The notes beneath the pieces are model-generated. The model was given only the letters and a program-made list of their open reading frames with translations, was not told where the DNA came from and did not search any database. Both the position numbers and the translations under genes were made by a program. From Dendrolimus kikuchii (taxonomy: Eukaryota > Arthropoda > Insecta > Lepidoptera > Lasiocampidae), in assembly GCA_019925095.2 (NCBI GenBank), contig CM034412.1:13492001-13556000 (forward strand): DNA of 64,000 bases, given 5' to 3'. Below, in pieces: positions 9,180 to 62,283 of this stretch (its first letter is position 1; each line of letters opens with the position of its first letter).

Positions 9180-9630
9180 ACTTCAGGTTTTCAAATTGGA
9201 CAAGTACATTAACAATCTGCCCGTAAAACTTCAAGTTAAAATTTTGTTGCGATTCATTTTGTCACTTGTCAGTTAAAGGTTTTTCACTTGTCCGTTGCGA
9301 TTCGTTTTTAACCACTTGTCCGTTGTGATTCGTTTTTCCACTTATCCGTTGCCATTCGTTTTTCCAATTGTCCGTTGCGATTCGTTTTTCTACTCATCTG
9401 TTGCCGTTCGTTTTTCAACTTGTCCGTTGCGATTCGTTTTTCCACTTGTCCGTTGTGATTCCTTTTTCCACTTATCCGTTGCCATTCGTTTTTCCAATTG
9501 TCCGTTGCGATTCGTTTTTCTACTCATCTGTTGCCGTTCATTTTTCAACTTGTCCGTTGCGATTCGTTTTTCTACTTGTCCGTTGAAGTTTCACTTCTAA
9601 TATGTGTCCCAGCACACATTTCGATTTTTG
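9180..9630 (-). mobile_element. K: element with internal 26-bp minisatellite
   Basis: The right end ('ttgtccgttgaagtttcact' to 'cagcacacatttcg') is the inverted counterpart of the left end of the shorter relative at 25718-25910. The 'ctgcccgtaaaacttcaag' segment near 9218 is shared as well. It is probably a non-autonomous DNA element whose subterminal part expanded into a minisatellite. Confidence 0.5.
9284..9587. repeat. 26-bp minisatellite with 130-bp higher-order repeat
   Basis: About eleven imperfect units of roughly 'cacttgtccgttgcgattcg' plus 'tttttc'. Variant units recur in the same order with a period of 130 bp (five units): the variant starting 'cttatccgtt' lies at 9341 and 9471. 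The repetitive open frames on the plus strand (9295-9600, 9368-9586, 9498-9782) are its translation. Confidence 0.9.
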
Positions 9631-20673: not shown

Positions 20674-21075
20674 AACCGACTTCAAAAAAGGAGGAGGTTC
20701 TCAATTCGTCGGGACCTTTTTTTATGTATGTTCACCGATTACTCCCAGATTTATGATCCGATTTACGTGATTCTTTTTTGTTCGACGCGGAATAGCTTCC
20801 ATTTGGTCCCCTAAAAATTTGACATAGTTTGGCCCGGTAGTTTTCATTTTATGAAAATTTTTCCATTCCGTTCCATATGTTCACCGATTGCGCTGAGATT
20901 TATAATCCGATTTACCTGATTCTTATTTAGTTTGATGCGGAATAGTTGCCATTTGGTCCCCTAAAAATTTAACATAGTTTGGCCTAGTAGTTTTAATTTT
21001 ACGAATATTTTTTTGTTCCCGTTTCTTGGGACCTATATTTTTTAAGGAGCGCGGCACCTTTCGTAGATCTACCCA
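20674..21075 (+). repeat. Q: 'accgacttcaaaaaaggagg' repeat with 149-bp tandem duplication
   Basis: It starts with the 'aaaaaaggaggaggttc' block, also seen alone at 36285-36310. A 149-bp unit ('ttcaccgatt...') is repeated once, starting at 20731 and 20880. Confidence 0.65.
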
Positions 21076-52287: not shown

Positions 52288-52590
52288 CTGTGCAGGAACG
52301 GAGAAAGAATACAATTTCCTGCGGCCGGGCGGCCTGTCGTAAGAGGCGACAAAACAACCCACAGCCAGGTGGTAGGGCACTTGCCCGACGGGATGGCTAC
52401 CACCCCTGGTCTAAAGTATGTCGCCATAACAACCTTGAGTTGTGTTCCGGCATTAGTGACCAGGTTCCAGTCTCCGTTAAGAGAGCAGCAGCGCATTTGT
52501 AGCACCTTTGGTCTTGCAAATGTCTATAGGCGATGGTAACCGCTTTCCATCAAGTGGGCCGTCTGCCTGTCTGCTGAACTCCTGCAATAA
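52288..52590 (-). repeat. A repeat, full length, nested in the hAT element
   Basis: Complete inverted copy. A 28-bp direct repeat (52231-52258 and 52611-52638, one mismatch) flanks it, offset by 29 bp on one side. Confidence 0.9.
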
Positions 52591-52902
52591 AAAATAAAAA
52601 ATAAAAATTAAACTTTACGTTTGTTGATTAATAATAAATATTGTTTCGATGATTAATAAATAAATGTTGATTAATATTTTAATTTGCTTTGTGGAGCTAA
52701 GCCGTGGCATCACTTAGAGGTGCTTGCGGAAGATCAGCGCTGGTTGTGAAACCAGCAATATGCTGAGCAAGAGCCTTTTTAGGACATCACAATTAATTGT
52801 TACATATATTATCATATAAGATTTTTTTTTTATTATTAACATCTCTACGGACTCGAGTTCCGTACCCTTTTTTACTACTTAATTTCTATGAAAAATTTTA
52901 GA

Positions 52903-56557: not shown

Positions 56558-56645
56558 TCATCGGAGTTCAGCAGACAGGCAGATAGCTCACGTGATAAAA
56601 AGTGGTTACCATCGCTTATGGACATTCATAACACCAAAGGCGTTA
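56558..56645 (+). repeat. A repeat, left part, interrupted by the helicase-bearing insertion
   Basis: It follows A from 'ggagttcagcagacagg' to 'aacaccaaaggcgtta'. The match resumes in register at 58864 after the 2.2-kb insertion, so this is one A copy split in two. Confidence 0.9.
56630..56645. repeat. Left target-site duplication of the helicase-bearing insertion
   Basis: AACACCAAAGGCGTTA is perfectly repeated at 58864-58879. Other A repeats have a single near-identical copy at this place, which gives the empty site. Confidence 0.9.
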
Positions 56646-56660
56646 TGTTTTTTAACATAA

Positions 56661-58175
56661 CAAAAAAAAAACAAAAACATAACGGTAGGAGATCCTCTCC
56701 TATCGAAAAGCATAACCAAACAACAAACTCTAACCCCACCCGTGAGGGAACCACCAGAGGCAAGATTAAAAGCCGATATGGGGATAGTGGAACCTCGAAT
56801 CTTACTCACTCCAATGAAACCGAGTGACCATTGGGCAAACGCCTTCATCGAGTTTTTAGCAGTCTGTAGAGCAAACATCATCCTCAACAAAAAGGTGGGC
56901 CAGTCCATCTTGGACACCTATAAGTTGGGAATCGACAGACTGCTTAAAACCAAACTCGAGACCGCAGAGGCAGCCGTGTACGACAACGCCACCTCCACCG
57001 TGCTAGCGGGGGAGATGTCGGGGGAATACATGGCAGCCTACAACGCCACAGGCGGTCTGGTCATTTTGGACGAGGAGGAGAGGAAGAAAGGAGAGGAAGG
57101 GAAACTACGCTTCCTAACCCCCCCAGAGGATCCAGTGGTAGTGGTGATGAAGTCCACAAGGATAATGCTAGACGACAGAATCCTGGAAAAAGCTAAAACT
57201 TTGACCGAGGAATCTGCCGGAGGCAAACCCTTCGACGAATGGACCGTCCCCGACATCACCTGGATTAACGGCGTCCCGGGCTGCGGTAAAACAACAGCGA
57301 TGCTCCGTGGCTTCAACACCAGCGAAGACATGGTCATCACAGCCACCAAGAAATCCGCAGAAGAAATACGGGAAAAGCTCCAACCCATCCTAGGCGACGA
57401 TGCCAAGGCCCGAGTGCGGACTATGGCCTCTTTCATAGTCAACGGGCTCACATCCACCTTTAGCCCGAAACGTCTCATCGTAGACGAAGCACTAATGAGC
57501 CACTTTGGTTCAGTGGTCATGGCAACTCGCCTAGCCGGAGCGGCTTACCTCACCCTCATGGGTGACATTAATCAAATGCCTTTTATAGATAGGAACGACT
57601 TGTTCCCTATGCTGTATCACCGCCCTACTCCATCGGCGAAGATCACCCGGGAACAGCTTTGTACACACAGAAACCCATAGGACGTAGCGTATGCCATGAG
57701 TGACGTATACTCCGGCATATACTCGTCCAAGAAACAGTCTCGCTCCCTGGAGCTGAAGCCGTATTCGCAGGAAAGCATACCCACAGACCTTGCCAATACT
57801 CTCTATCTGACGCACACGCAGTCAGAGAAAGAGAACCTAATAAAACTAGGTTGTGGCAAGGGCGAAGGGTCTGCAGTCCAAACGATACACGAAGCCCAGG
57901 GATTAACATTCGAGACAGTGGTCATTGTGAGGTCCAAAACCAGAAAAATGGACCTGTACAGAAGCATTCCACATGCGGTCGTGGCAATCTCGCGGCATAC
58001 GGACAAATGTTACTATTATACATCCGTATGCGAAGAGGACGCCACTGCAACCTTCGTCCTCAAAGCACAGAAGGCCACCACCGCGGAGATTAGGGATTAC
58101 ATACTTAAAATGGCGATCCGCATCAGGGATAAGACGGTCGTTAATAATCTAATGGAGGCAGAACAATCCCTATAA
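56661..58175 (+). pseudogene. Viral-type superfamily 1 RNA helicase domain, one in-frame stop
   Basis: The frame is open from 56661 (preceded by a stop, so no native start) for 339 codons to TAG at 57678-57680. It continues in the same frame for 164 codons to TAA at 58173-58175. The first ~200 codons are a charged linker of unknown fold. The helicase core follows: Walker A 'GVPGCGKTT' (57270-57296), motif Ia region 'ITATKKSAEEI', Walker B 'LIVDEA' (about 57474-57491), motif III 'GDINQMPF' (57561-57584), motif V 'TIHEAQGLTF' (57882 on) and motif VI 'VAISRHT' (57978 on). All catalytic residues are present. Motif spacing and sequence are those of the alphavirus-like superfamily, closest in my judgement to tobamovirus-like helicases, which unwind RNA in replication complexes. 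The single TAG between motifs III and V is the only lesion seen. GC content is clearly above the surroundings. Whether it was ever expressed here is unknown. Confidence 0.85.
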
Positions 58176-58863
58176 TCCCCCTACAAATCCCACCCCAAAT
58201 CATCAATAGCAAAATATCACAACTCACCTAACACACACCCCACACACCAGAACAACAAAACACAAATAACACAGAACAACACAAGTCACAAAAGACACTA
58301 TGACACACAATAAACAAACAGCACACCAAAATCACCAACACACAACGAACAAACAAAAATTCCACCCTGACACAAAAATAAATAAAAAACAACAAAATGT
58401 ATTAGAATAAGCTATTTTTAAGACTACTTGTAATGCACATTTTAAGGAAAAAAAAAAACAAAAAAAAAAAATATATATATACATATCCTAAGAATAGCAT
58501 AATAATATTAGCACCTAAGACTCCACACACGCCAAACACCACACCCACTTTATAACAGCAACACTACACAAGTTAGAATAAGTAATATAATAAGTCCAAT
58601 ACATCTATAAACCAATACACAAATAGCAAACAATAATAAAAAAAAATTTCATATAACATAAAATACTTAGAGATTAAGAAATTAATCAATAAGCACCACC
58701 CGTGTCTATGTCGTCAACTTTAATACAATAATAAAAAAAAAGAACAATGTTATCAGCGCAATAAAAAGACACAAACCAATACAACTAATAAACTTCAAAT
58801 TAAAAAAGGTACGGAACTTTAGAGTCCGTAGAATTGTTTATTTAAAAAAATAAAATAAAATAA
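58176..58863 (+). other. 3' UTR of the helicase-bearing insertion, A/C-skewed, A-rich tail
   Basis: After the TAA, 58180-58400 is almost free of G and poor in T, and 58400-58790 is AT-rich with A-runs. It ends 'ggtacggaactttagagtcc', a short stem-like segment, and an A-rich tail immediately before the right TSD. A related 'gttccgtaccc' and 'ttttagagtcc' pair lies at 52858-52908. Confidence 0.7.
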
Positions 58864-59096
58864 AACACCAAAGGCGTTACAAATGCGCTTCTGCTCTCTT
58901 AAGGGAGACTGGAACCTGGCCACTAATGCCAGAACACAACTCAAGGTTGTTATGGCGGCATGTCCCAGACCAGAGGCGGTAGCTATCTAGACAGGCAAAC
59001 ACCCCACCACCTGGCTGTGGGTTGTTTTGTCGCCTCTTACGACACGCCGCCCGGCCGCAGGTAATTATATTCTTTTTGCGTTCCTGCCGGGATAAA
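58864..59096 (+). repeat. A repeat, right part
   Basis: Continues the copy begun at 56558, from the duplicated 'aacaccaaaggcgtta' to 'cctgccgggata'. Confidence 0.9.
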
Positions 59097-61976: not shown

Positions 61977-62283
61977 TAATTGCAGGAGTTCAGCAGACAG
62001 GCAGACGGCCCACTTAATGGAAAGCGGTTACCATCGCCTATGGACATTTGCAACATCATAGGTGCTACAAATGCGCTGCTACTCTCTTAATGGTCACTGG
62101 AACCTGGTCACTAATGCCGGAACACAACTCAAGGTTGTTATGGCGACATGCTTTAGACCAGGGGTGGTAGCCATCCAGTCGGGCAAATGCCCTACCACCT
62201 GGCTGTGGGTTGTTTTGTCGCCTCTTACGACAGGCCGCCCGGCCGTAGGAAATTGTATTCTTTCTCCGTTCCTGCACGGATAA
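61977..62283 (+). repeat. A repeat, full length
   Basis: Complete from the T-rich lead-in to 'cctgcacggata'. It forms an inverted pair with the next copy, about 150 bp apart. Confidence 0.9.

Follow-up and report, generated by a model that had tools for sequence, protein, structure and literature searches.

A young copy of a helicase-bearing, putatively R1/TRAS-type LINE in the moth Dendrolimus kikuchii and the probable viral source of the C-terminal part of its ORF2

In Lepidoptera, some R1/TRAS-type long interspersed nuclear elements (LINEs) carry a superfamily 1 (SF1) helicase at the C-terminus, after a spacer of more than 300 aa for which no significant similarity to anything in databases was reported (Lazareva et al. 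2015, PMC4686597; here and below, statements on published papers refer to the sections consulted). Later on, the nearest viruses were shifted from tobamoviruses to insect virga-like viruses, with Hubei virga-like virus 1 and 2 at 37–44% identity, and cases of independent origin were added from Hemiptera and Orthoptera, in which the helicase belongs to ORF1 of Jockey elements (Morozov et al. 2017, PMC5563155). In addition, helicase-bearing copies were found not to lie near telomeric repeats and TRAS elements were described as inserting in TTAGG repeats (PMC6338049), TRAS3 being without helicase (PMC4686597). Here we describe an element of this kind in a stretch of 64,000 nucleotides (hereafter the window) of the 705-Mb genome assembly of Dendrolimus kikuchii (Lasiocampidae, Lepidoptera; GCA_019925095.2, contig CM034412.1, positions 13,492,001 to 13,556,000, forward strand). 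A sequence-only reading of this stretch had proposed that 56630–58879 is the 3′ terminus of an R1-type LINE which had captured a tobamovirus-like helicase, and had mentioned reports of such LINEs; these reports exist (PMC4686597 and PMC5563155). Our results very probably describe a young 5′-truncated copy of a recently active helicase-LINE, in which a viral piece was captured by a TRAS/R1-type LINE.

The kind of element is already known since 2015, and the viral homology of its spacer goes beyond the sections consulted of PMC4686597 and PMC5563155. With the published SF1H-encoding TRAS-like LINEs, the family shares the putatively R1-type second open reading frame (ORF2), the C-terminal viral SF1 helicase, the spacer of more than 300 aa, the occurrence in Lepidoptera and the non-telomeric location. 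However, the spacer, for which those reports found nothing similar in databases, has here a viral homologue and a macrodomain-like predicted fold, and RNase H is explicit here whereas the published figure legend names the endonuclease (EN), the reverse transcriptase (RT) and the zinc finger (ZF). The telomeric TRAS LINEs (e.g., Bombyx TRAS3) have the R1-type EN and RT layout in common with the present family, but insert in TTAGG repeats, and TRAS3 carries no helicase. The Jockey-type LINEs of PMC5563155 likewise hold a viral SF1 helicase, in ORF1 rather than at the end of ORF2. Note that the word Dendrolimus is absent from PMC4686597 and the stem Lasiocamp- from PMC5563155, in both cases as regards the main texts.

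Between its target-site duplications (TSDs), the element of the window consists of 27 junction bases followed by 2191 bases with an A-rich end, this A-rich 3′ end having been seen already in the sequence-only reading. The copy itself has the following parts, the helicase motifs being read from the sequence and its open reading frame (ORF):

56673–58863, plus strand: 5′-truncated helicase-LINE copy; 42 match rows in the genome including the window copy, 37 of them at 97% identity or more
56673–57677, plus strand: C-terminal part of ORF2, piece 1 (ORF2 residues ~1534–1868), with the linker end, the helicase N-terminal region and motifs I–III
57270–57296, plus strand: helicase motif I (Walker A), GVPGCGKTT
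57474–57491, plus strand: helicase motif II (Walker B), LIVDEA
57561–57584, plus strand: helicase motif III, GDINQMPF
57678–57680, plus strand: in-frame TAG stop that breaks the window copy, found by ORF reading and not listed in the sequence-only reading
57681–58175, plus strand: C-terminal part of ORF2, piece 2, with motifs V and VI and the normal stop; Viral_helicase1 profile positions 144–228
57882–57911, plus strand: helicase motif V, TIHEAQGLTF
57981–58001, plus strand: helicase motif VI, VAISRHT
58176–58863, plus strand: 3′ untranslated region (UTR), A/C-rich, with an A-rich tail at its end; a similar end is found in other copies
58810–58830, plus strand: small 3′-terminal hairpin TACGGA...TCCGTA, whose fold energy is not unusual by itself (z −1.14)

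All five motif strings that had been quoted as evidence for a helicase are indeed held by a single frame (56661–58175), interrupted by the TAG, and correspond to motifs I, II, III, V and VI. When the two frame segments were compared with viral helicase profiles, as had been proposed, Pfam Viral_helicase1 matched each of them (E 2.2e-14 each), and both pieces also have sequence matches in 3vkw and 3wrx, structures of the tobamovirus helicase. Piece 1 is the sole stop-to-stop ORF of at least 170 aa in the window. Judged by these motifs and profiles, the window copy encodes an alphavirus-like SF1 RNA helicase region with one in-frame stop. Truncated, without RT and with this stop, the copy is dead on arrival.

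Taken alone, the window copy presents virus-like coding sequence only, an A-rich end and a TSD, as would be expected of an endogenous viral element, i.e., a viral transcript copied in trans by a LINE and without LINE coding sequence of its own, which was the second possibility offered by the sequence-only reading. The decision between the two relies on longer copies, whose 5′ parts had been suggested as a check. The copy search, in which 40 of 433 candidates were scored and 42 rows obtained (two copies giving 2 rows each), revealed a family of at least 40 copies including the window copy. Upstream DNA was fetched for 12 copies: ORF2 is open in six of them (2033 aa in five, 2029 aa in one), and the remaining six start later; moreover, three of eight copies with longer flanks have an open ORF1 of 690 aa overlapping ORF2. 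In the copy L014, ORF1 has two CCHC-type motifs, and Pfam places in the 2033-aa ORF2 an Exo_endo_phos_2 endonuclease (127–245), RVT_1 (549–794), RNase H (967–1092) and Viral_helicase1 (1731–1983, E 1.8e-33), with a CCHC-type knuckle at 1182. The order along ORF2 is endonuclease, reverse transcriptase, RNase H, CCHC-type knuckle, a linker of ~40 aa, a conserved domain of ~165 aa, a variable linker and the SF1 helicase. The window copy starts at about residue 1534 and does not include the ~165-aa domain.

Because the longer copies have an open ORF2 joining endonuclease, RT and RNase H in frame to the helicase, the window element is a LINE 3′ end and not an endogenous virus, and the identification as the 3′ end of a helicase-bearing LINE, putatively of the R1/TRAS type, is supported. 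Continuation of the copies 5′ into viral methyltransferase or polymerase, named beforehand as a sign of viral origin, was not seen in the copies fetched. In addition, at least 13 named species of Lepidoptera have relatives in which a single ORF contains both RT and helicase. The mobilised viral transcript, already refuted by the 2033-aa RT-helicase ORF, keeps a negligible probability. Hardly any credit can be given either to a non-autonomous family that consists of the helicase only and has its proper 5′ end at 56673: in the genome, query position 34 is a start point shared by many matches to the window copy, but this is only where the window copy stops matching, and all 12 fetched copies continue further 5′, with many start points and none sharing this 5′ end. 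Both candidates were rejected.

The same layout was found outside the family. The whole-length ORF2 search gave 207 proteins, of which the best 120 were examined; among these, the helicase-bearing relatives are mostly ~1900–2070 aa, those with a species name are all from Lepidoptera, and many relatives have no helicase. Of 60 rows first counted as helicase-less, 59 end at or before ORF2 residue 1255, and the 60th (P0067) extends into the helicase and was counted as helicase-bearing in the 121-row alignment. The spacer of ORF2, from ~1252 (where the match of the helicase-less relatives ends) to the helicase match at 1731, is longer than 300 aa, and its conserved domain (residues 1293–1455, ~165 aa, hereafter the extra domain) is present in 54 of 54 helicase-bearing rows and in 0 of 67 helicase-less rows. 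In a quick RT tree of 120 rows (one helicase row with too little RT was left out), the 53 helicase rows fall into one 57-row part (support 94) together with four helicase-less rows, with 5 changes of state; losses or broken gene models may account for these four rows. The source name of some relatives without helicase is ‘115 kDa protein in type-1 retrotransposable element’; the RT tree itself held no reference TRAS or R1 sequence.

The helicase-region search (7988 candidates scored) gave at least 71 proteins. Among the matches listed, the closest is P0152, a 3147-aa replicase on a 10.9-kb contig with methyltransferase, FtsJ, helicase and RNA-dependent RNA polymerase (RdRp), whose helicase shows 44% identity (366 bits) to that of the LINE along the entire region, as compared to 33–36% for the six viruses that come next in the list; Hubei virga-like virus 1 and 2 are not among the matches listed. 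The sequence-only reading of a tobamovirus-like helicase is refined by this result: the nearest viral helicase among the matches listed is that of P0152, followed by virga- and martelli-like viruses, rather than that of a tobamovirus. The SF1 helicase core is common to the LINE and to these replicases (P0152, Atrato virga-like virus 1 and 2, Xiangshan martelli-like virus 3). P0152 also shares the domain that precedes the helicase, in the same order, but where the LINE has EN, RT and RNase H, it has methyltransferase, FtsJ and RdRp. Note that a scan of viral contigs with piece 1 of the window copy gave 12 pattern stretches, none of them a relative.

The extra domain extends this homology beyond the helicase. 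Its LINE profile matches P0152 at 1518–1695 with 75.7 bits, as compared to a best score of 1.6 bits in the other 18 of 19 virus-type proteins (the domain being found in 1 of 19) and of 3.1 bits in 399 shuffled or reversed controls, and BLAST with three single LINE queries against the same part of P0152 gave E-values of 7e-8, 2e-9 and 1e-12. LINE residues 1462–2033 match P0152 1815–2390, and since the extra-domain and helicase matches are colinear in P0152, both domains keep their order there and lie shortly before the viral polymerase; ~117 P0152 residues between the two matched parts are not aligned. In contrast, LINE residues 1–1290 gave no match to P0152 (best E 0.52). Over its last ~740 aa (residues 1296–2033), ORF2 has a colinear homologue in one segment of an RNA-virus replicase. 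The helicase tree that had been proposed as a check (55 helicases, 36 of them chosen LINE rows; quick tree, midpoint root) placed the LINE rows in one clade (93) with P0152 as sister (96). The six viruses that follow, of which three bear a virga- or martelli-like name, form a group of their own (98) that joins at 99; branches are long in several of the more distant viral rows.

The simplest reading of these comparisons is probably one capture of ~740 contiguous aa from a virus of the P0152 lineage by a LINE ancestor, and more than the helicase seems to have been taken up. The reverse course, in which the helicase alone came from a virus, the extra domain was a LINE invention and the ancestor of P0152 took both from a LINE, would agree with the presence of the extra domain in only one virus-type protein, but we consider it unlikely: P0152 lies outside the LINE clade and the further viruses outside both (with the reservation due to a quick, midpoint-rooted tree with long branches), the P0152 helicase sits in a long replicase with methyltransferase and polymerase, and the helicase-less LINE relatives do not have the extra domain. 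Under a single capture, the viral piece would have entered a TRAS/R1-type LINE early in Lepidoptera and would have been passed on mainly within the element lineage.

As concerns the extra domain itself, its predicted fold resembles a macrodomain, but sequence signatures do not confirm this. With the 520-aa two-domain model, Foldseek against PDB mostly gave small GTPases and some macrodomains, none at E ≤ 0.001, and against the viral library 9 matches at E ≤ 0.001, mainly replicases; VIA matched the helicase N-terminal part of the same model to the tobamovirus helicase and its extra domain to macrodomains. Modelled alone, the extra domain had 1 match at E ≤ 0.001 in the viral library, and its weaker matches there include phage macrodomain proteins and thrips virga-like virus proteins. 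On the sequence side, Pfam on 9 extra-domain members found no macrodomain (three names came up, each in 1 of 9 members, best E 0.02), PDB profile searches with the domain gave no macrodomain match, and the usual macrodomain ligand-loop motifs are altered, as judged by eye. The domain differs in this from known macrodomains (PARP9 macro 2, alphavirus nsP3, coronavirus X domain), as it has no sequence match to the macrodomains of Pfam or PDB. On such modelling, binding of nucleic acid or of an ADP-ribose-like ligand is a conceivable way in which it could help, a suggestion we make with little weight. Among the open-access papers found in our searches, none appears to connect helicase-LINEs to a macrodomain, a word that is also absent from the consulted text of PMC4686597, PMC5563155 and PMC6338049.

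Conservation of the helicase bears on whether it does anything for the element. The ratio of non-synonymous to synonymous divergence (dN/dS) of the helicase region against three older copies is 0.14, 0.12 and 0.19 (the three pairs share one partner and are not independent), and across relatives the motifs are kept and the helicase region is ~47–55% identical. By these measures the helicase is kept under purifying selection, and since it is conserved, it would be used, although how it is used we infer. Passive baggage without function, for which one could cite the many relatives that have no helicase and the four helicase-less rows that fall among the helicase rows in the RT tree, appears quite improbable in view of the kept motifs and the low ratios. 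In earlier work, the helicase of a Plutella LINE complemented a plant virus deficient in its silencing suppressor, a result called preliminary and not unequivocal by its authors (PMC4686597) and later summed up as weak but detectable silencing suppression (PMC5563155). The helicase would most likely protect or clear the element RNA. That it binds or unwinds double-stranded RNA that would otherwise feed silencing is a tentative proposal, held at slightly less than an even chance, and help with reverse transcription on a structured template is somewhat less likely. We give about equal chances for and against a contiguous viral cassette, made of the macrodomain-like domain and the helicase, taken from a P0152 relative and with both parts kept together (in all 54 helicase-bearing rows). 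If true, the LINE would carry a viral counter-defence module of two parts, directed at double-stranded RNA and possibly also at ADP-ribosylation. The viral homologue of the spacer turns a ‘LINE with viral helicase’ into a ‘LINE with viral replicase segment’ and indicates the nearest viral lineage. The two domains are now testable for a role in retrotransposition or in silencing resistance, because the moth genome holds recently active copies.

This recent activity is readily observed. Over 6099 nt, the ORF2 DNA of L012, L014 and L018 is one and the same sequence, from which L017 and L019 are each 1 nt away, and the three identical copies are located on different contigs; transposition is therefore recent. 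Compared to L014, the window copy shows 4 coding substitutions (including the stop), 13 UTR substitutions and 4 UTR indels. The family is recently active and the window copy is young. Among older copies, L029 and L031 have a synonymous divergence (dS) from L014 of 0.22–0.36 in the endonuclease region against 0.01–0.02 in the RT, and this contrast suggests mosaics formed by recombination or template switching between subfamilies. Tandem duplications were observed upstream of ORF1 in L012 (117 nt) and L015 (partial repeats), resembling the promoter repeats of some LINEs. The copy L009 has on both sides a direct repeat, 97% alike over at least 149 bp, which on the upstream side is ~910 bp away from the 5′ end of the copy.

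The insertion site of the window copy was resolved as follows:

56563–56645, plus strand: left half of the target repeat, like a short interspersed nuclear element (SINE); once joined, the flanks match further places of the window across the junction
56630–56645 (left) and 58864–58879 (right), no strand assigned: TSD AACACCAAAGGCGTTA, 16 bp, exact match, absent elsewhere in the 64-kb window
56646–56672, plus strand: 27 extra junction bases, A-rich, not in the copies compared; other copies match only from 56673 or later
58880–59095, plus strand: right half of the SINE-like target repeat, from the joined-flank alignment

The perfect 16-bp TSD claimed from the letters was recovered, its shared word being longer than the maximum of 12 in 100 shuffles of the same flanks. 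The claim of an A repeat split in register, taken as a repeat split by the insertion, also holds: the joined flanks align across the junction to 8 other places of the window (81–86% over 289–304 bp) and to 2 further places at 77–78%, with 29 other match rows in the window in total, many of them shorter. Genome-wide, the 24-mer made of the TSD and 8 bases of the right flank has, with up to 3 mismatches, 29,643 forward and 29,726 reverse matches (59,369 in total), as compared to 0 for its reversed control. Since the joined flanks align to repeat copies and the 24-mer is abundant, the insertion split a repeat, 16 bp of which were duplicated. The target repeat is SINE-like, ~300 bp long and very abundant, with other window copies at, e.g., 61985–62283 and 52292–52582 (minus strand). 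The 27 bases at the 5′ junction, which the sequence-only reading did not mention and which were compared directly with L014, are probably filler made during insertion.

The TSD, the A-rich tail and the 5′ truncation of the window copy fit target-primed reverse transcription, in which the endonuclease would nick the target, the reverse transcriptase would prime at the 3′ end, and early dissociation of reverse transcription would leave 5′-truncated copies such as this one. The window copy is nevertheless the sole one with a TSD beyond chance among 13 with both flanks, as 0 of the 12 others exceed their own shuffles. The 3′ junctions were tried for 39 copies, one of which gave no alignment, leaving 38 printed junctions of 40 bases each. 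TTAGG insertion was seen in 0 of 38, and no target-site preference was seen by eye in these 3′ flanks. At least 13 of the 38 copies have no A-tail and end inside or just after the 3′ hairpin (L012, L013, L016, L033–L035, L044–L048, L050 and L053), and priming without poly(A) therefore seems common in the family. Taken together, the single TSD beyond chance among 13 copies and the at least 13 of 38 without A-tail suggest that many insertions may involve other repair or internal priming.

Elsewhere in the window, a 54-bp stretch at 52822–52872 (minus strand) is 81% alike to the 3′-terminal hairpin and A-tail of the LINE and is preceded, by eye, by unrelated sequence; the helicase-LINE may share its 3′ recognition end with another retroelement. 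Rfam at the gathering threshold gave no match in the window, and a tRNA scan of it found none. Tandem arrays occur in the window at 9279–9585 and 20727–21012, with periods of 26/130 and 150 bp, respectively.
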